A stretch of 34,255 bases of DNA. Source: Desulfuromonadales bacterium (lineage in GTDB: Bacteria > Desulfobacterota > Desulfuromonadia > Desulfuromonadales > BM103). The notes beneath the pieces were generated by a model. The model was not told the origin of the DNA and searched no databases. It saw nothing but the letters and a program-made list of their open reading frames with translations. Location of the stretch: positions 1 to 34,255 of the forward strand of contig JAQYVY010000037.1 of the NCBI GenBank assembly GCA_030145195.1. Direction: 5' to 3'. The translations under genes were made by a program, and so were the position numbers. Shown here piece by piece: positions 1,704-18,950 of this stretch. Numbering within the stretch: position 1 is the first letter of the stretch; every line of letters begins with the position of its first letter.

Positions 1704-2237
1704 GTGCGCTTACTCATTTTACTAACCATGCTGGGTCTTTTGCTCTTCCCCCTCGCAGCAGGTGCTGAATCAAAGGCCTACCAGGAAATCGGCGTGCGCG
1801 GTGGGACGGATGACAGCCGGCACAACCTGCAGGAAAACTATAACACCGGGGAGATTTACTTTTTACAGGCCTTACCCTGGGGCACCACTCTGGGCGATCA
1901 GACCACCTTATCCAGCCGTTTCGATATGGGTGCAAGCTATCTCAACGTCAAGGAGAGCGGCAATGTGATGCTGGCAGTCGGTGCCGACCTGGTGCTCGGC
2001 TTATGCAACGGCGGCATAGAGCTTGAGATCGGATTTCGTCCGACCTGGATGTTCGATCACACCTACGGCCAAGACAATTTCGGTGGCGGCCTGCAATTTT
2101 CCAATCATGTTGGCCTGGCCGTCATCTGGCAACCGCTCGTTCTCAGCTACCGCTATCAACACACCTCCAACGCACACCTTTACGAGCACAATCCCGGCCT
2201 CAACCTGCATCTACTTGGCCTGGGATATCGTTTCTAG
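1704..2237 (+). CDS. Acyloxyacyl hydrolase family protein (PagL-like lipid A deacylase)
   Basis: This 177-aa protein has a cleavable signal peptide (hydrophobic residues 2-18, likely cleavage after AGA) and alternating amphipathic strands ending in an aromatic residue (GYRF), as in small outer membrane beta-barrels. The segment YQHTSNAHLYEHNPGLN near residues 151-167 resembles the conserved PagL region, in which His and Ser two residues apart are catalytic; here these would be His153 and Ser155. PagL enzymes remove the 3-O-linked acyl chain of lipid A in the outer membrane. In PagL of Pseudomonas the third residue is a Glu 14 positions after the His; here that position is Asn167, with Glu161 nearby, so the triad is uncertain. 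The start is GTG 1704, preceded by a GAGGTGG ribosome-binding sequence. The gene follows the efflux gene after 127 bases. Confidence 0.72.
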   Translation: MRLLILLTMLGLLLFPLAAGAESKAYQEIGVRGGTDDSRHNLQENYNTGEIYFLQALPWGTTLGDQTTLSSRFDMGASYLNVKESGNVMLAVGADLVLGLCNGGIELEIGFRPTWMFDHTYGQDNFGGGLQFSNHVGLAVIWQPLVLSYRYQHTSNAHLYEHNPGLNLHLLGLGYRF

Positions 2238-2550: not shown

Positions 2551-3174
2551 TCACTCTTTCGTTAACGCAACCACCTCGCCAGCAAGCACTTTACTCAATT
2601 CGGCAACCAGCAAGCTCTCCGCCTTGATCAAGGCCGCATAACTTGCACCTTCAAGCGGTTGGCGATACTCACTCTTGCCCCCGGCAAGCAGCTCCCGACC
2701 TGTGGCATCAGACACCGTCCAGCGCGCACTGAGGACAGCCTCTCCACCCAGCGCACCATCCAATCGCACCAGATCGATCATGACCCGATAGGTCGGCTTG
2801 AAATGAGGCATCCACGGGAAAAAACCAACGTTTTCGACACCAAGCAACTGCCCGAGATTGTCGCCCAGAACCGTGGTTAAATCCTTTTCCAGCACCCCGG
2901 CCCAGCGATTGAACTCATCAAACTCATACTGATTGCCATGCTGCCGGGTCGCAATCTGTGAGCGTTTCAAACTATCCGGTATCGTGACGGGACCAATGCC
3001 CAACCGCACCTCTGGGAGCGCGCAAATCGCCTGCGTCTGGCCCAATTGCTCCATGGTCAAAAAGCTATAGTAGCTAACCGTCGGTGAGCTACGCCCCAGA
3101 CACCCTGCAAACAAAAGCAAGCAGACCAACAGCAGACCAAAAATCCTGACGCGACAAAGCTTAAGGTTACTCAT
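2551..3174 (-). CDS. pqiC: PqiC-type lipoprotein (ABC-type transport auxiliary lipoprotein, DUF330)
   Basis: This 207-aa protein has a signal peptide with a lipobox (FAGC, Cys25), then the start typical of PqiC proteins (SSPTVSYYSF). Later segments (GIGPVTIPDSLKRSQIATR, FDEFNRWAGVLEKDL) match the DUF330 pattern of a beta-sheet domain that binds the MCE partner. In E. coli, PqiC is an outer membrane lipoprotein that interacts with the periplasmic PqiB tube in envelope lipid transport. The start ATG overlaps the pqiB stop (ATGA at 3171-3174), so translation is coupled. It is the last gene of the operon. The family assignment is strong; its lipid cargo here is inferred only. Confidence 0.9.
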   Translation of the reverse strand: MSNLKLCRVRIFGLLLVCLLLFAGCLGRSSPTVSYYSFLTMEQLGQTQAICALPEVRLGIGPVTIPDSLKRSQIATRQHGNQYEFDEFNRWAGVLEKDLTTVLGDNLGQLLGVENVGFFPWMPHFKPTYRVMIDLVRLDGALGGEAVLSARWTVSDATGRELLAGGKSEYRQPLEGASYAALIKAESLLVAELSKVLAGEVVALTKE

Positions 3175-4835
3175 TTCTTTACGCCCTCCTTACCAAGGAT
3201 CAAGGCCTGCGGATCGCGCTCCAGATATTCCAGCAACGATCGGAGCGAGCGGATGGTCAGAGACAGTTCGTCGGTCACCTTACGGGCGTTATAATTCAGC
3301 GCTGAGTCGGGGCCAAGAGTGGCCTCAACGCCCTGCAAGGTCGCTTGCAGCCGATCCAGTGCCGCATTCACTTTCGGGATTGTCTCCTGATTGACCTGAC
3401 CCGAGATCGTCTTGATTTCCGCGAGCGTAACACCCAGCGCCTTAACGGCAACCTGCAGATCCTGGCCGATCTTGTCGAACGGTATCGTTTCGACCTTTTT
3501 TACGATTTGCGCAACGCTCTCGGTGATCTGCTCAAGAGGCGTCGGGATGGTCGGAATCACTGGATAAACCCCACTCATATCGGCTGTGGCCGGTGGCGCC
3601 TCCGGGTAAAAATCAACATCAATATAAAGCTGCCCGGTCAGCAGGTTCCCGGTTTTTAATTGTGCGCGCAGCCCTTTTTCGACGGCTTTGGCCAAGTCGT
3701 AGCCAAGGCCCTTATCTCCCAGAATTTCTTCCCGCTTATCCTGCGGGTTGATGAACGCACCCTCATCGGTGATCAGCACATCGACCCGCTCAGGTTCCAC
3801 CATAATCAGCACCGGAATCCTGACTTGCTGGGTTTCCCGGTTGATTTCAAGCTTGACCTCGATGACTTCGCCCATATGGATGCCCTTCATTTCGACCGGC
3901 GCTCCAGCCGATAACCCACGCACATTTTGATCGAAGTACATCAGGTAATAGCGCTTGATGGCATACGTCTTCTCCTCAATGCTCTTACGGTCCTTGAAAA
4001 GCTTAAACACTCTTTCTGCTTCGGCCTGGTCGGCACGGTCCCGATGCTCGGGCAGATCAAAAGACACCCCACCGAGCATGATTGAAACCAGTGACTGGGT
4101 ATCTAAATTGATTCCGGTAGCATCCATGGTTAAGTTGACCCCACTGGCATTCCAGAACCGGCTATTCTGGTAAACTTTTTCATGAAAAGGCCCCTTGACA
4201 AAGATTTTGATGTCAACCCCGTCACGGTCCAGATCGTAATCGTAATCGACGACCTGGCCGACCTTGATTCCGCGGTAATAGACCGGAGCGCCGCGGTCAA
4301 GCGAACCCAGTTGCTGTGAATGCAGGAGAAAGTGACGGCCAGGCATATCGGCCGTAATCAACGGCGGCTTTTCCAGACCCGTGAAATGATCGGCCCATTG
4401 GCCTTCATTGGACGGATTACAACCAATGTAAGCTCCGGAGAGCAAGGTCCCCAATCCAGAAACTTCTCCCGCCGCCACTTGGGCCCTAACCACCCAGAAC
4501 TGTGTTTTGTCCTTCATATAAGCCTCAGAGTCCTTGCTCATCTCAGCCGTGACGATGACGCCTGAATGATCCTGGCTCAAGACAATTTTCGTGACTTTGC
4601 CAATCGCGACATCTTTGAACTTGATCTTGGTCTTGTCAGCCTCCAGGCCGTCTGCCGTTTCGAATGCAATCGTTATGACGGGGCCCTTTTCTGACATCGC
4701 CTTAAAAGTCAACCAGCCGCCGATCAACAGCGCTATGATCGGTACCACCCAGACAATCGAGAAACTCCGCTTGGTCTGCACCAGAGCGAGAGGAACTTGT
4801 TCTCCTTGCTTCATTTCAGAATCCTCTTGATTCAT
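3171..4835 (-). CDS. pqiB: PqiB, MCE-domain envelope transport protein
   Basis: The product is 554 aa, close to E. coli PqiB (about 546 aa). One N-terminal membrane helix (about residues 25-44) is followed by three MCE/MlaD domains at about 50-140, 165-260 and 295-405. The pattern YYRGIKVGQV in domain 2 and PVEMKGIHMGEV in domain 3 are typical MCE signatures. A long C-terminal helical region (about 430-540) corresponds to the coiled helices that form the central needle of the PqiB hexamer. PqiB is thought to form a hydrophobic tunnel spanning the periplasm for lipid movement. The start ATG overlaps the upstream pqiA stop (ATGA at 4832-4835) with GGAGG just before it. It sits between pqiA and pqiC, the classic order. 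Confidence 0.96.
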   Translation of the reverse strand: MNQEDSEMKQGEQVPLALVQTKRSFSIVWVVPIIALLIGGWLTFKAMSEKGPVITIAFETADGLEADKTKIKFKDVAIGKVTKIVLSQDHSGVIVTAEMSKDSEAYMKDKTQFWVVRAQVAAGEVSGLGTLLSGAYIGCNPSNEGQWADHFTGLEKPPLITADMPGRHFLLHSQQLGSLDRGAPVYYRGIKVGQVVDYDYDLDRDGVDIKIFVKGPFHEKVYQNSRFWNASGVNLTMDATGINLDTQSLVSIMLGGVSFDLPEHRDRADQAEAERVFKLFKDRKSIEEKTYAIKRYYLMYFDQNVRGLSAGAPVEMKGIHMGEVIEVKLEINRETQQVRIPVLIMVEPERVDVLITDEGAFINPQDKREEILGDKGLGYDLAKAVEKGLRAQLKTGNLLTGQLYIDVDFYPEAPPATADMSGVYPVIPTIPTPLEQITESVAQIVKKVETIPFDKIGQDLQVAVKALGVTLAEIKTISGQVNQETIPKVNAALDRLQATLQGVEATLGPDSALNYNARKVTDELSLTIRSLRSLLEYLERDPQALILGKEGVKK

Positions 4836-5467
4836 GACTCGTCCTCCACAACATCCCAGATTAACCTTGGGTCAAAACTCTCTGAGGCGAGCATCGTCAT
4901 CACAACAACAGCGGCAAAGTAGATCGCAGCCGGCCCAGCTTCAATCTCGGCAAAAGCACCGAGTTTGACGAGAGCAACCAGAATGGTCACAACATAGATA
5001 TCAAGCATCGACCAACGCCCAACCGCTTCGGTAAATTGGTACAAACGGGTCCGGTCTCTGGGGCGTTTTATCGATTTAAACTGCACTGAAAGCAACAGGT
5101 AGATCAGGATCGTAAATTTCAGGAAGGGCACGAATACGCTCGCGGTGAAGATCACCAGTGCGATTGCCCAGGAGCCGCTGTGCATAAAGTAGATCACACC
5201 ACTCATGATGGTGTCAGCGGAAACCGAGCCCAACGTCGTGGTGATGGTCATCGGTAAAACATTGGCAGGAATATACAAGATCATGGCGGCCAGCACCAAA
5301 GCCCAGGTTCGCATCAGACTGTTCGGCTTGCGCTGATGCAGTTCCCCGCCACAGCGCGGACATGCGGCCTCTTGATGGGCGGCTCTTTGCGGCATGCGAC
5401 TGAGCAGGTGACAATCATGACAGCTGACCAGGCCCAGCTTTCGGGCGGAGGCAAAAGAAGCTTTCAC
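4832..5467 (-). CDS. pqiA: Paraquat-inducible protein A, second single-domain copy
   Basis: This 211-aa membrane protein has an N-terminal zinc-ribbon-like part with Cys pairs (CHDC and CPRC) and four hydrophobic segments, including YIPANVLPMTITTTLG, a hallmark of the PqiA domain. The later segment VGRWSMLDIYVVTILVALVKLG is also typical. E. coli PqiA carries two such domains in about 417 aa; here each is a separate gene. The start is GTG at 5465-5467, overlapping the preceding stop (GTGA), so the two halves are probably made together and may form a heterodimer equivalent to fused PqiA. PqiA is an inner-membrane protein that likely feeds the PqiB tunnel. Subunit pairing is my inference. Confidence 0.92.
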   Translation of the reverse strand: MKASFASARKLGLVSCHDCHLLSRMPQRAAHQEAACPRCGGELHQRKPNSLMRTWALVLAAMILYIPANVLPMTITTTLGSVSADTIMSGVIYFMHSGSWAIALVIFTASVFVPFLKFTILIYLLLSVQFKSIKRPRDRTRLYQFTEAVGRWSMLDIYVVTILVALVKLGAFAEIEAGPAAIYFAAVVVMTMLASESFDPRLIWDVVEDES

Positions 5468-6063
5468 GAGTCACCCCCAAGCCGCTCCCAGACCATGTGT
5501 GAATCCACCGCCGAGAGCGCAAAGGTCAGTACAAAGATCAAGAGTCCAAAAGCGATGACCGCTAACCCGGGGACAATCGTCGCCATCTTGCCGAGCTTGA
5601 CGATCGAAACCAAAATGCCAAGCAAGTAAATCTCCATCATGCTCCACGGTTTGACCTTTTGAAACAAGCGAAACATCGAGATAGCATACTTCACCCGGAA
5701 GTTCAGCTTCAGCGGTACAAAAATATAAAACAGGGCAAGCATCTGGAGCAGAGGAATCAAAAGACAGGTCAACAAAACCAGTGTCGCCAGTGAGATAATC
5801 CCCTGGTGGTAAAGTTGTTGAATTCCGCTGAGAAGTCCGGTCTGATTGCCGATCGCGCCGTTTTTCATCGCCAGGAAAGGAAAAGTCACCGCGACCACAT
5901 AGAGCACCAGCCCGGCGATAGTCCAGGCGAGAGTCCGGTTAATGCTGTCGACCTTGGTGCGAAACAACACCGAACCGCAACGTAGGCAACAGGCCGTGGC
6001 CGGCGCTGGCAGGGGTGGAATCTCCTGCACCAGGTCACACTCATGGCAAGCAATTTGATGCAT
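5464..6063 (-). CDS. pqiA: Paraquat-inducible protein A, first single-domain copy
   Basis: About 199 aa, a paralogue of the next gene and equivalent to the N-terminal half of fused PqiA. It begins MHQIACHECDLV, with two Cys pairs (CHEC, CLRC) that may bind metal, and continues with four membrane segments, including VVAVTFPFLAMKNG and KPWSMMEIYLLGILVSIVKLG, which are PqiA signatures. I prefer ATG 6063, preceded by GGGGAAG nine bases upstream; an in-frame TTG at 6081 would add six residues and also has a weak GGAG upstream. The gene follows the TAXI protein gene after about 40 bases on the same strand, and its stop overlaps the next start. Function as in PqiABC lipid transport is inferred from the family. 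Confidence 0.9.
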   Translation of the reverse strand: MHQIACHECDLVQEIPPLPAPATACCLRCGSVLFRTKVDSINRTLAWTIAGLVLYVVAVTFPFLAMKNGAIGNQTGLLSGIQQLYHQGIISLATLVLLTCLLIPLLQMLALFYIFVPLKLNFRVKYAISMFRLFQKVKPWSMMEIYLLGILVSIVKLGKMATIVPGLAVIAFGLLIFVLTFALSAVDSHMVWERLGGDS

Positions 6064-6101
6064 GCTTTTAAACTTCCCCAAAACAAGAGCTCCGGACTAT
6101 T

Positions 6102-7046
6102 TTATTTGCCGGAAACCATGTCCGTGCATCGATAGCCAAAATCTTTCAGAACCTTGCAGACAGTCAGCGAACGCAACGCTCCGACATGGCCGAGGTCAGG
6201 ATTATAACTGTTGAACAACACATCATTCCACTTGGGGTGACCGTTCTTCTTGAGCTCTGTTTCGTTAACGCGCAGGGAGAAATGGACCGAGCCGACCAAG
6301 TCATTGGCCAGCCCCTCCTCCTCGTGGATCATGGTGGCAAGCACCGAACGAACAGTGTAGGTGCTCACCTCATGGTCTAACCAGGGATAATCCTCTGGGC
6401 CAAGAATGGCCCGCGAATAAAAATTGGCGGCCTGGCGAAGCTGTGGCAAGGGGATCAGCTCAAGGCCGCTCTCTCCGATCAGCAGCGGGTAAGGCTTGCC
6501 TGCGGTGATAACAACCAGGTCAACGGTTCCGCCCTTCAGCTGGTCGATGGCCGTCGCGTAATCGTCGTAGAGGTACTGAAACTTTTTGCCGTAGAGCTCT
6601 TCGATGACCGCTGCCGTTAAGCATGAGCCGCTGCTCGCCATGCCGCAACCCACCACGAAACGTTTCTGTTTGGAGAAATCGAGATTGTTATCCCTGGCTT
6701 TGAGGAGGTGCACCTCCTCCCAATAGAGCGGCATCACCACGTGAATCTCGTCTTCAATTCTGGCCGAGGTGTTTTGATACAGGTTCTTTGATGCCTTGAC
6801 AAACGCATCGACCTGGAAGATGGCGAACTCCGTATTACTGTTGAACAGTTCGACGATATTCTCCCAGGACCCTTGCGAGGGGAGCACCTGCAGATGCACA
6901 CCGGTAGAATCGGTGACCGCCGACATTTCCTGGCCAAGCTGATAGTAGATGCCCTCTTCCGGGCCGGTCATCAACCGCAATTCGATGGCGCAGACAGCCG
7001 ATGCCGACAGACTGAGCAGCAGCACAACTAAAAGCAATTTTCGCAT
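6102..7046 (-). CDS. TAXI family TRAP-type solute-binding protein
   Basis: The product is about 314 aa with a clear signal peptide (MRKLLLVVLLLSLSASAVCA) and should be periplasmic. The mature part has the TAXI pattern: GIYYQLGQEMSAV, then a GSWENI segment, and FAIFQVDAF. These belong to the periplasmic binding proteins of TRAP transporters that normally work with a fused DctQM permease. ATG 7046 has an excellent AGGAGG ribosome-binding site; longer forms lack a signal peptide start. No TRAP permease lies in the window. Instead the gene is followed within about 40 bases by the two pqiA genes, pqiB and pqiC on the same strand, so it probably belongs to that operon. Its ligand and whether it delivers anything to the Pqi system are unknown. 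Confidence 0.85.
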   Translation of the reverse strand: MRKLLLVVLLLSLSASAVCAIELRLMTGPEEGIYYQLGQEMSAVTDSTGVHLQVLPSQGSWENIVELFNSNTEFAIFQVDAFVKASKNLYQNTSARIEDEIHVVMPLYWEEVHLLKARDNNLDFSKQKRFVVGCGMASSGSCLTAAVIEELYGKKFQYLYDDYATAIDQLKGGTVDLVVITAGKPYPLLIGESGLELIPLPQLRQAANFYSRAILGPEDYPWLDHEVSTYTVRSVLATMIHEEEGLANDLVGSVHFSLRVNETELKKNGHPKWNDVLFNSYNPDLGHVGALRSLTVCKVLKDFGYRCTDMVSGK

Positions 7047-7355
7047 GGGGAGCCCTCCTCGGGGCAAAGTGTCCTGATACAGCAAACCGACAGACGAACA
7101 ATCGCCCTTGGAACAGTTAGAATTCTAACATACCCCGCTTGGCTGACAAGCTCGGAAGTCTAGAATATTACAGTGATTCTTTCTGTTTTTAATTGTCATA
7201 ACCAGCACCGGCAAGCGACCATCTCTGGGGGGCGCTCACAGTATAAAGTCTGCCTTGAGTTAATCAGCAAACTGAAACCTCCCCTTGGAATTTATCTAAT
7301 CTCCTTATATACTTAGCGTCACACAAAGATGACAGAACACAGCAAGGAGAATAAA
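7047..7355. promoter_or_regulatory. Divergent intergenic region with a 14-bp palindrome
   Basis: This 309-base gap separates the divergent TAXI-pqi operon (-) and a lipoprotein gene (+), so promoters for both should lie here. A perfect palindrome GTTAGAATTCTAAC occupies 7116-7129, about 70 bases before the TAXI start, and on the minus strand overlaps a possible -10 like sequence (TATGTTAGAAT). It is a candidate operator; no regulator is known. I see no gene here. Confidence 0.4.
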
Positions 7356-8021
7356 ATGAGTAATTTTGGCAAAAGCTGGTCTGGCCCGGCGTTAGCGTTG
7401 GCAACCCTGCTGCTCTGCATCGGCTGTTCCAGCACGACCCTTTCCGGCTCCTGGAAAAGCCCCGAGTACACGGGCAAAGTAAAAAAAGTTTATATCGTCG
7501 GAGTGTCAAAGCAGGAAACCCGTCGGCGCATGTTCGAGGACCAGTTTACCCAGCAGCTCGGCAAATATGGCGTTGTGGGGATTTCCAGCTACCATGATTT
7601 TCCAACTGCGCAAAACGCAGACATAGGAGCCGTCACTGGAAACGTCAAAGCCAACGGTGCCGACTCGGTCTTGTTGACGCGCGTCCTCAGCAAGCGCACC
7701 GAAGAGGTCGTCAATCCTGGGCGCATTTCGACATACAACGTCTCTCCCAGTTACTACGGCAGGGGAGAAAGCTATCGTCCACAACCTTACTATCGCAACT
7801 ACAACAGCTACTACGACCGTCGCTACGAAATGACTTACGAGCCAGCCACCATAACGCAGTTTGTGGTTGTGACCCTGGAATCAAATCTCTACGATACCGC
7901 CTCCGGCGAATTGATCTGGTCAGCGCAACTCGAAACCCTCGTTGAGGGAACGATCGATTCTCTGGTCAAGGATTACATCAAGACCGTGACCACGGATTTA
8001 CACGATCAGGGCTTGATCTGA
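7356..8021 (+). CDS. Lipoprotein, DUF4136-like
   Basis: This 221-aa protein has a signal peptide with lipobox (CIGC, Cys24). The mature part (LSGSWKSPEYTGKVKKVYIVGVSK) and the alternating strands, with a central Tyr/Arg/Pro-rich loop around residues 125-165 and the ending SGELIWSAQLETL, resemble the DUF4136-type lipoproteins common in Desulfuromonadales, of unknown function. ATG 7356 follows AAGGAGA at good distance; an upstream ATG at 7329 lacks such a site. It is followed by a strong terminator, so it is probably a single-gene transcript. The location is likely the outer membrane, as no Asp follows the lipidated Cys. Molecular role unknown. Confidence 0.8.
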   Translation: MSNFGKSWSGPALALATLLLCIGCSSTTLSGSWKSPEYTGKVKKVYIVGVSKQETRRRMFEDQFTQQLGKYGVVGISSYHDFPTAQNADIGAVTGNVKANGADSVLLTRVLSKRTEEVVNPGRISTYNVSPSYYGRGESYRPQPYYRNYNSYYDRRYEMTYEPATITQFVVVTLESNLYDTASGELIWSAQLETLVEGTIDSLVKDYIKTVTTDLHDQGLI

Positions 8022-16942: not shown

Positions 16943-18550
16943 TCAACGGCATGAATCAGTAAAGAAAACCGCGTGATTGGAGGTAAACAGCGGTGGCGTG
17001 CGATTGACAATCGTGCGGATTGCCGCCGAACCGCGCAGACGCTGCTCAAGAAAACGGCGCGCGGCGGCGCGGTTCCAGGCGCTGTCGGAGTGAAATTTCT
17101 GGTAAAGACCGAGCGGGTTATTGGCTTCGATCGGTTCCGCCGCGGCAATGCCGTACTGCTGGGGGTTGTCAAGGAGTCCCGAGGCACGCGGCAGATTCAT
17201 GATCGCGAGATTCAGAAAAGATATTTCGGCTGCATGCAATTCGAGAAAATTCAGCGTCAGTTCGGCATCGGCCTCGGTTTCACCGGGGGTGCCGAGCATA
17301 ATGTAGACAAAGCTGGCGATGCCGGCAGCTGCCAGATTGGCCAGAACACGCGCGACCGATTCGAGGCGCACCCCCTTGCCGAGGCGGTCGAGCACGCTCT
17401 GCGAGCCACTTTCCAGCCCCAACTGCAGCATGCGGCAACCACTTCGGGCCAGGCGGGCAACGAAGCCAGCATCCTCCAGCACAGGCTCAAAACGGACAAA
17501 GCCGAACCAGTTGAGATCCGCCAATTCGTCGGCGCGTTCGGTCAGGACCTTGAGCATGTTGACCGGAACGGCGTTATCGGTCAGCTGAATATAGCGAACG
17601 CCGTAGCGCTCAGCCAACTGACGCATCAGGTCAGGAAGCTCGGCTGGATTTGTGGCGGTGTAGGGATGGACGGGCGCAGCCGCCTCCGGGCAGAAGAGGC
17701 AGCGCTGCCAGTAGCAACCTCGCGAGGTACTCAGCGGTAGCACCGGTTGTGGTGAGAAGTAGTCGGTGAGCCGGGCAAAAGTGAAGTCAGGGACAAAGCT
17801 GATGGTCGTCGCATCGGCCAGAGCATAGCTGTCATCGACCTCACCTTTAGCCAGAGCGGTCAAGGCCGCTTCACCGGGACCAAAGACCAGCCGATCAAAG
17901 GGTGACAAGCGCAAGTCGAGCCGCCGTAGTGGCTCCTGCCACGAAGTGATCAATCCGCCACCGGCAACCAGCAGAGCCTCAGGCAGCGCACGGCGCACAA
18001 GCCCGGCCAGTTCAAACGCCGGCAGGGCCTGATGCAGAAAATTGATGGAGATGGCGATAATGCGTGGTTGTGCCGCAATGATCTGGGGCAGCAGTTCCTC
18101 GCGAAAATAGGCTGCGAACAGAGTCTCAGCACCTCCGCTGGCGACCTGTGCCAGAGCTTCAGGGTTAAATGAGGAGAGCCCGGCATGCTGGTAATCGCCG
18201 AGGGTCAGGCGTTCGTCGCCGTTGCGGCTGTTCCACAGGGCCAACAGCCGATTGAGATAGCGCACGGCCGTGTTGTAACGGGCAAAGCTTTGCGTTGCCG
18301 CCGCCGACCGCAACAGCGACAGCGAAGCTGAGCGGTGGCGCAAGGCTCGTCGTAGACTGGTCTCGGGCGTGGCTCCGGCCCGGGTTGCCAGCCTCTCGCC
18401 ATCGAGCAGGTAAAGGTAGGCCTCCAGATTGGCGTCAATCGCTGTGGCTGTCAGCCCCTGAGCTTGCAGATGTGCCAGCAGAATCGCCAGAGCGAGTGGC
18501 GGCTCAGCGGGTTTCAGCGCTGGCGGTTGGAGGAGCAGGAGATCTGTCAT
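16943..18550 (-). CDS. B12-binding-domain radical SAM protein
   Basis: The product is about 535 aa. It begins MTDLLLLQPPALKP, typical of proteins with an N-terminal cobalamin-binding-like domain (about residues 1-230; the segment LLVAGGGLITSW and the nearby FGPGEAAL are characteristic). The radical SAM core follows (about 270-480) with the cluster motif in SRGCYWQRCLFCPE: Cys279, Cys284, Cys287, a C-x4-C-x2-C spacing rather than the usual C-x3-C-x2-C. Later parts (LQLGLESGSQSVLDRLGKG, VYIMLGTPGETEAD) are typical radical SAM. I chose ATG 18550 because upstream residues look unrelated, although only a weak AGG precedes it. The substrate is unknown; such enzymes often methylate or rearrange natural products, lipids or peptides. 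No RiPP precursor is visible nearby. Confidence 0.88.
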   Translation of the reverse strand: MTDLLLLQPPALKPAEPPLALAILLAHLQAQGLTATAIDANLEAYLYLLDGERLATRAGATPETSLRRALRHRSASLSLLRSAAATQSFARYNTAVRYLNRLLALWNSRNGDERLTLGDYQHAGLSSFNPEALAQVASGGAETLFAAYFREELLPQIIAAQPRIIAISINFLHQALPAFELAGLVRRALPEALLVAGGGLITSWQEPLRRLDLRLSPFDRLVFGPGEAALTALAKGEVDDSYALADATTISFVPDFTFARLTDYFSPQPVLPLSTSRGCYWQRCLFCPEAAAPVHPYTATNPAELPDLMRQLAERYGVRYIQLTDNAVPVNMLKVLTERADELADLNWFGFVRFEPVLEDAGFVARLARSGCRMLQLGLESGSQSVLDRLGKGVRLESVARVLANLAAAGIASFVYIMLGTPGETEADAELTLNFLELHAAEISFLNLAIMNLPRASGLLDNPQQYGIAAAEPIEANNPLGLYQKFHSDSAWNRAAARRFLEQRLRGSAAIRTIVNRTPPLFTSNHAVFFTDSCR

Positions 18551-18950
18551 CAGAAAAACCTGGTGAAGTTTGCAAGCCATAAGACAAATCAGCCATCTGG
18601 ACATCAGGAGGCTGGCGGTCTTGACCGTCCGCAACAAGAGATAGAAGCTTTGAGGTCAGGCTTGAGGTGACAGAGTTTTACGGTTAATGAGTTGACAGAA
18701 CCTCACCATGAAAAGCTCCTTCCAATGAATAGACAGCACCCCATTGCCCGTTGTTCTCTTCTACCTCAGGCTCCTAGACCATGTCAAACCATAGCCGGGA
18801 GAGAAAACTCCCTGGTCCCAAGCAATTATCCTTTCCTTCCGCATGCCGATTCTGAAGACAAGGAGAGTCAGGACCGCTCCCTAAGCACCATTGACTTGCA
18901 CTGTAATACAGAGACAGCCTACAATGAACTCTTAACGACAAGGGGGCCTT
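18551..18950. promoter_or_regulatory. Divergent intergenic region with candidate larA promoter
   Basis: This 400-base gap separates the divergent radical SAM gene (-) and the lactate racemase homologue (+). I see no supported gene. A possible sigma-70 promoter for the plus-strand operon is TTGCAC at 18896-18901 and TACAAT at 18920-18925 with an 18-base spacer, about 25 bases before the GTG start. The promoter is only a pattern match. Confidence 0.45.

Follow-up and report, generated by a model that had tools for sequence, protein, structure and literature searches.

What does a periplasmic solute-binding protein do when its gene stands first in a lipid-transport operon? For the most part, TAXI proteins are known to feed permeases. 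In the 34,255 nucleotides of contig JAQYVY010000037.1 from a Desulfuromonadales bacterium (assembly GCA_030145195.1; this whole stretch is referred to as the window), a TAXI gene directly precedes the genes of a PqiABC system. Our best explanation, which we hold with middling confidence, is that it encodes a permease-less TAXI protein with a small-ligand pocket, which is co-expressed with pqi in some genera and is not a part of the Pqi machine itself.

Organization of the TAXI-pqi locus

The five genes lie co-directionally on the minus strand in the order TAXI-pqiA1-pqiA2-pqiB-pqiC. The TAXI gene (6102–7046) encodes a periplasmic solute-binding protein of 314 amino acids, assigned to its family by NMT1_3, TIGR02122 and fold. 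It is followed by pqiA1 (5464–6081; PF04403, 147 bits) and pqiA2 (4832–5467; PF04403, 187.3 bits), which encode the N-terminal and the C-terminal half of PqiA and align with positions 10–202 and 211–402, respectively, of the pqiA_fam model (403 positions). The pqiB gene (3171–4835) codes for three MCE (MlaD) stretches (PF02470, 123.7 bits; NF008070 for PqiB, 476.8 bits at a cut-off of 525) and the last gene (2551–3174) for a pqiC-like outer-membrane lipoprotein with an ABC_trans_aux domain (PF03886, 127.6 bits; NF033620 for pqiC, 35.2 bits at a cut-off of 200). The matches to the whole-protein NCBIfam models of PqiA, PqiB and PqiC were all under the cut-offs; by gene order and domains, with PqiA domains, a three-MCE PqiB and a PqiC lipoprotein in a single operon, the system belongs to the PqiABC type. 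Compared with PqiABC of E. coli (PMC10897342), domains and order are the same, whereas in the window pqiA is divided into two genes and preceded by a TAXI gene.

The pqi genes overlap by four bases each (GTGA between pqiA1 and pqiA2, ATGA between pqiA2 and pqiB and between pqiB and pqiC). For pqiA1, either TTG at 6081 or the better-placed ATG at 6063 may serve as start codon, which leaves a gap of 20 or 38 bases, respectively, to the TAXI gene. The original prediction, made from the letters of the sequence, had described this gene order, the three overlaps and a gap of about 40 bases, and our coordinates confirmed all of them with a gap of 38 bases. A promoter-like site (TTGTCA-16-TAGAAT; 7149–7122, minus strand), found by a consensus scan only, ends about 75 bases upstream of the TAXI start codon. 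Within the TAXI-pqiA1 gap, consensus scans, which are weak evidence, detected neither a promoter-like nor a terminator-like site; in these scans, terminator hits occurred at chance frequency and promoter hits numbered 6 compared to 3.2 in shuffled sequences. A terminator of its own behind the TAXI gene, which together with a TRAP partner elsewhere would have spoken against the original prediction, was thus not found by scanning.

The original prediction had also stated that the window lacks a permease. In agreement with this, tblastn with the only TAXI-type TRAP permease of the genome gave no homolog in the window, and Pfam scans of those window genes that were submitted revealed no TRAP family. 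This permease, a fused protein, is encoded elsewhere in the genome (C37) and adjoins a TAXI gene of its own, which is the only one besides that of the window found with the Pfam model; each of the two other TRAP systems of the genome has its own DctP. Likewise, the surroundings of the 15 TAXI genes of the clade described below yielded no homolog of the C37 permease, which served as the only query, in stretches of 3.5–18 kb around the 14 relatives, the short ones being bounded by contig ends. At 12 of 15 other TAXI loci, in contrast, a TRAP permease homolog was present within 1.5 kb. The locus of the window thus differs from a complete TAXI-TRAP transporter in that an adjacent fused permease was not found.

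Linkage and history of the TAXI clade

To place the locus among its relatives, we surveyed 277 genomes of the class and called orthologs of the window's TAXI protein at E ≤ 1e-30. Such orthologs were present in 15 genomes, 14 of them among the 22 genomes of the window's family and one (G064) in another family. In a phylogenetic tree, these 15 proteins formed a fully supported clade, to the exclusion of 17 other TAXI proteins. In five of the 15 genomes, belonging to five genera, the TAXI gene is located directly upstream of pqiA1, in eight it is apart from pqi and two are undecidable, since the contig ends within TAXI in G008 and right after TAXI and a DUF2092 gene in G018. The gaps to pqiA1 are 38 bases in the window's genome (G000), 90 in G015, 111 in G002, 96 in G007 and 83 in G001, whose contig is cut off within pqiA1. 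The arrangement is therefore not unique to the window's strain, whereas uniqueness would have refuted the original prediction, and its recurrence in four relatives with a TAXI protein 54–58% identical to that of the window argues that the adjacency goes beyond chance.

The reverse side of the comparison concerns the genomes in which TAXI and pqi are not joined. TAXI lies away from pqi in G004, G009, G014, G016, G019, G020, G021 and G064, and the first five of these carry pqi at another place. No PqiA was found in G064, although this genome is 99% complete, nor in G020 and G021, the latter being 59% complete. Conversely, four genomes of the family (G003, G011, G012, G013; two of them less than 90% complete) have pqi without a TAXI gene of the clade. 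PqiA occurs in 108 of the 277 genomes, and of the 95 genomes with PqiA outside the family we inspected 80, with one locus each; TAXI was found at none of these 80 loci, several of which end at contig ends. Linked loci thus amount to 5 of 14 inside the family and 0 of 80 outside, with genomes counted as independent, which they are not. Neither constant linkage nor constant co-occurrence with pqi, as expected for a Pqi subunit, was observed. The five unlinked genomes with pqi elsewhere and G064 with TAXI and without detected pqiA make an obligate Pqi subunit unlikely. In two unlinked genomes, G064 (L051) and G016 (L040), strong GC-rich hairpins, judged from folds by eye, follow the TAXI stop codon, unlike in the window gap.

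The comparison also put the divided pqiA into perspective. The original prediction was right that there are two separate genes, but this is hardly remarkable: among 79 loci outside the family with both halves, 68 have two separate pqiA genes and 11 a fused one, so split pqiA is normal in the class. No other conserved gene heading pqi emerged outside the family, as the upstream co-directional open reading frames at 79 loci formed no group larger than three.

The comparison with other TAXI proteins that the original prediction had called for set the clade apart, as described above, and the linked proteins did not form one group within it. The unrooted tree of the 15 proteins is divided by a 100/100 split into side A, consisting of the window's protein and those of seven unlinked genomes, and side B, to which G064, both undecidable genomes and the four linked relatives belong. 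With the other TAXI proteins as outgroup, side B had weak support (82/65) and side A was not recovered as a resolved group. A single origin of the linked state was rejected, since a clade of the linked rows failed the approximately unbiased (AU) test with p = 6e-45; the window's row sits on a long branch. In an rpoB tree comprising 16 of the 22 family genomes, G015 and G018 of side B grouped with G012 and with G004, G014, G019 and G020 of side A (88/94, not starred), and for G015 the rpoB tree and the pqi tree, the latter calculated without G001 (only 36 residues of PqiA1 before the contig end), both disagreed with the TAXI tree. This mixing of the two sides suggests that the history of TAXI was probably not simply vertical, and old paralogy or transfer are both possible. 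On these trees, gain and loss of the TAXI-pqi linkage are inseparable.

Fold and ligand pocket of the TAXI protein

The window's TAXI protein matched the Pfam family NMT1_3 with 51.5 bits, above the cut-off, and TIGR02122 (TRAP_TAXI) of NCBIfam with 67.3 bits, under the curated cut-off of 84.35. A profile of 11 clade members retrieved five PDB sequences at E ≤ 0.001, two of which are annotated as TAXI, two as "immunogenic protein" and one as "putative GluR0 ligand binding core". An AlphaFold2 model based on a 31-row alignment, in which L036 was omitted as a near copy of L035, reached a mean predicted local distance difference test score (pLDDT) of 88.3; an earlier model from 11 close sequences had been poor (pLDDT 53). 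Compared with solved structures, the model gave Z-scores of 26.2–27.7 for six TAXI-type entries, to which the protein is 17–21% identical, and 14.4 for the next family. The protein is thus predicted to have the two-lobed TAXI fold: its residues 20–299 have the same fold in the model as the TAXI-TRAP binding proteins VcGluP (VC0430, 8S4J) and that of Thermus (1US4, 8U79), with Z about 27. The N-terminus is hydrophobic and resembles a Sec signal peptide, so the signal peptide proposed in the original prediction is plausible, judged by eye only.

As a reference for the pocket we used the published glutamate contact residues of VcGluP (PMC11574862) and mapped them onto the clade via a profile alignment, which is sequence-based and spans about 17–20% identity. 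In this mapping, seven contacts are kept and six are changed. All 15 clade rows have Y45, Y46, S75, Q93 and G156, 14 of 15 have E125 (the other one has D) and 14 of 14 have G203, so that most residues holding the amino and alpha-carboxyl groups appear to be common to VcGluP and the clade. In the permease-linked TAXI protein at C37, the clade's Y, Y, Q and E are replaced by F, Q, Y and A. In addition to the six changed contacts, the clade differs from VcGluP in having Cys134 and Cys142, which occur in 15 of 15 clade rows and in 0 of 16 other TAXI proteins. The retention of most amino- and alpha-carboxyl-holding residues makes a small polar ligand likelier than a lipid, and the ligand of the clade may be alpha-amino-acid-like with a different side chain. 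A role in carrying lipid cargo, which the original prediction had left room for, is thereby disfavored.

Neighborhood and possible roles of the TAXI protein

The flanks of the locus were inspected in the window and its relatives. Upstream of TAXI and divergent to it lies up8 (7329–8021, plus strand), a gene outside the operon whose product had no Pfam or NCBIfam match and which recurs beside the TAXI slot: it is located divergently beside TAXI in G015 and G018 and near pqi in G012, and two copies lie between pqi and X433-MlaA, a gene pair described below, in G247 (L127 6805–8064). On the other flank, also outside the operon and convergent with pqiC, a PagL-like lipid A deacylase is encoded (1704–2237, plus strand; PF09411, 61 bits), which is present in G015, too. 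Together with PagL and up8, genes for a poly-A-polymerase/CCA-type nucleotidyltransferase, an aminotransferase, HD and HEPN proteins are recurrent and apparently unrelated neighbors of pqi in the family, so that adjacency alone is weaker evidence of function than it appears. A gene for an NhaA-type Na+/H+ antiporter is located upstream of and co-directional with TAXI in four genomes (L047, L049, L050, L052), in two of them (L047, L050) directly. In four unlinked genomes (L041, L042, L044, L045), small proteins of one cluster are encoded just 5' of TAXI, and the one that was scanned belongs to the cytochrome c7 family. A predicted periplasmic DUF2092 protein is encoded 3' of TAXI at the contig end of G018 (L046 189–968), and a relative two genes upstream of pqiA1 in G009 (L057 7641–8237). 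A few genes from pqi or the TAXI slot, an MlaD protein and an ABC-type substrate-binding protein (PF04392) are encoded (L046 6811–9143, L053, L054, L056); the latter is another binding protein beside an MCE gene. Farther away in the window, a B12-binding radical SAM protein (16943–18637, minus strand) matched 17 NCBIfam models at E ≤ 0.001, none of which reached its cut-off.

A second association between TAXI and outer-membrane lipid genes was found in G001, where a different TAXI gene is followed by genes for X433, a protein of 433 residues, and MlaA (L047 3244–6423). X433 had no Pfam match; by eye we take it to be alpha/beta-hydrolase-like, with a GYSLGG motif. It was present in 112 of the 277 genomes, of which we viewed the best 70 loci by score; for the top 30 of them, flanks of about 1.5 kb were included, and for the remaining ones 2.5 kb, as far as contigs permitted. 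MlaA adjoins X433 at 69 of these 70 loci, and TAXI adjoins it at 36 of the top 42 (26 among ranks 1–30 and 10 among ranks 31–42) and at none of the last 28, the boundary between the 42 and the 28 being a drop from 470 to 445 bits. No TRAP permease homolog was found at 18 X433 loci with wider flanks. In G045, the gene run continues as TAXI-X433-MlaA-MlaE-ABC ATPase-MlaD (L234 1326–7484, minus strand). In a tree with 34 of 58 rows, three of the 58 being duplicates, the X433-linked TAXI proteins grouped with two permease-linked glutamate-type TAXI proteins (93/92, not starred), apart from the window's clade. This operon resembles the window in having a TAXI gene without a neighboring permease beside outer-membrane lipid genes, and differs in its TAXI lineage and in the presence of the hydrolase-like protein and MlaA. 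A search of the window's genome for X433 at E ≤ 1e-15 gave no match, so that the two cases are independent; what the TAXI-X433-MlaA operon backs is only the general notion of TAXI proteins as possible members of lipid-transport neighborhoods. The idea that TAXI replaces MlaC as lipid carrier was dropped, as MlaC is present in the window's genome and in 204 of the 277 genomes. By hand count, MlaC is present in 23 of the 42 genomes with top-ranking X433 loci; because a single genus accounts for 14 of the 19 that lack it, we draw nothing from this number.

According to our preferred explanation, one transcript would carry TAXI and pqiAABC, so that the binding protein would be made whenever Pqi is made. 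The protein would act separately in the periplasm, where it may bind a small polar ligand such as an amino acid or a similar zwitterion, and would be an accessory useful under the same envelope conditions as Pqi rather than a structural part. Such an accessory role could account for TAXI being conserved outside the operon or in a genome without pqiA. Since TAXI and pqi also occur apart, the TAXI protein is probably a helper or neighbor rather than a working part of Pqi. Several points weigh against this explanation. In the four linked relatives, gaps of 83–111 bases leave room for a separate promoter. With respect to the ligand, S40, V44, H123 (Y/F in the clade), D157 (S), Y200 (I/V/L) and M201 (T) of VcGluP are altered, including D157, which sits on the alpha-carboxyl side and acts via water, and six changed contacts make the ligand class a guess. 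Moreover, the clade is not alone in having the Y-Y-Q-E set, which 5 of 16 other TAXI proteins have as well. Among the 22 family genomes, ten have TAXI and pqi, four only TAXI, four only pqi and four neither (Fisher p = 0.39), and across the class pqi is present in 10 of 15 genomes with TAXI compared to 99 of 262 others, a weak association (p = 0.03, relatedness uncorrected). Finally, that TAXI has stayed at the head of pqi in five genera may reflect a true partnership.

Such a partnership, in which TAXI senses or carries a ligand for Pqi and contacts PqiA or PqiB, is what the original prediction had suggested. The head-of-operon place is retained while the flanks vary, with NhaA upstream of TAXI in G001, G002, G007 and also G008 (pqi being past the contig end) and with PagL or HD/HEPN genes after pqiC, and the X433-linked lineage, operonic with MlaA and once also with MlaE, an ABC ATPase and MlaD, suggests that a connection between TAXI proteins and lipid systems of the outer membrane is possible. 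The weak class-wide co-occurrence points in the same direction. We nevertheless regard a dedicated partner as unlikely, because 8 of the 15 TAXI genes are unlinked, pqi occurs without TAXI in four family genomes and at the 80 outside loci, the pocket appears to be of the small-ligand type, and PqiB, according to a proposal (PMC10897342), bridges the periplasm with a channel of its own. The original prediction is thus partly supported: the arrangement recurs and no independent terminator or free TRAP partner came to light, yet a dedicated role in Pqi is weakened. We also doubt the opposite extreme, that the slot between up8 and pqiA1 belongs to a syntenic island and that TAXI is kept there by common descent and functionally unrelated to pqi. 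The nucleotidyltransferase, aminotransferase, HD and HEPN genes recurring around pqi would fit this, as would the slot being empty or occupied by DUF2092 in other genomes. On the other hand, the co-directional gaps measure only 38–111 bases at all five linked loci, and the slot holds TAXI genes of both sides of the 100/100 split, with the linked rows rejected as a clade; the linkage therefore had more than one origin, or it is old and persisted while individual copies moved, were exchanged or disappeared.

A quite improbable explanation is that TAXI serves a permease, of the TRAP type or another, whose gene lies elsewhere in the genome. The fused TAXI-type permease at C37 would be a candidate, and use of a partner other than TRAP has a precedent in the TAXI-GltS systems, exemplified by BP0403 of Bordetella (PMC12344293), which resemble the window in that the operon partner of TAXI is not a TRAP permease. 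However, the C37 permease already has its own adjacent TAXI protein with a different pocket type, and the two other TRAP systems have their own DctP. GltS itself was set aside as partner, since PF03616 had no match in the window's genome (it is present in 6 of the 22 family genomes); TAXI-GltS also differs in that the neighbor in the window is a lipid-transport operon.

A broader idea, which we put forward tentatively and consider more likely wrong than right, is that in Desulfuromonadia permease-less TAXI proteins have become periplasmic receptors in outer-membrane lipid homeostasis on two or more occasions, one involving pqi and another a hydrolase and MlaA. Their ligand might be a small polar compound released when lipids are damaged or turned over, e.g., a head group, and they would signal or gate the flow of lipids while feeding no permease. 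In the open-access literature, which formed the scope of our search (preprints and most subscription journals lie outside it), we found no report joining TAXI with Pqi or MlaA and none on TAXI in Desulfuromonadales or Geobacter; one Roseobacter proteome paper came up for VacJ together with TAXI and a TRAP transporter. A permease-less TAXI clade that retains much of a small-ligand pocket and heads a lipid-transport operon, together with the strongly conserved TAXI-X433-MlaA operon, points to envelope maintenance as a possible further task of these receptors. Both associations offer a concrete handle on what the Pqi and Mla systems respond to.

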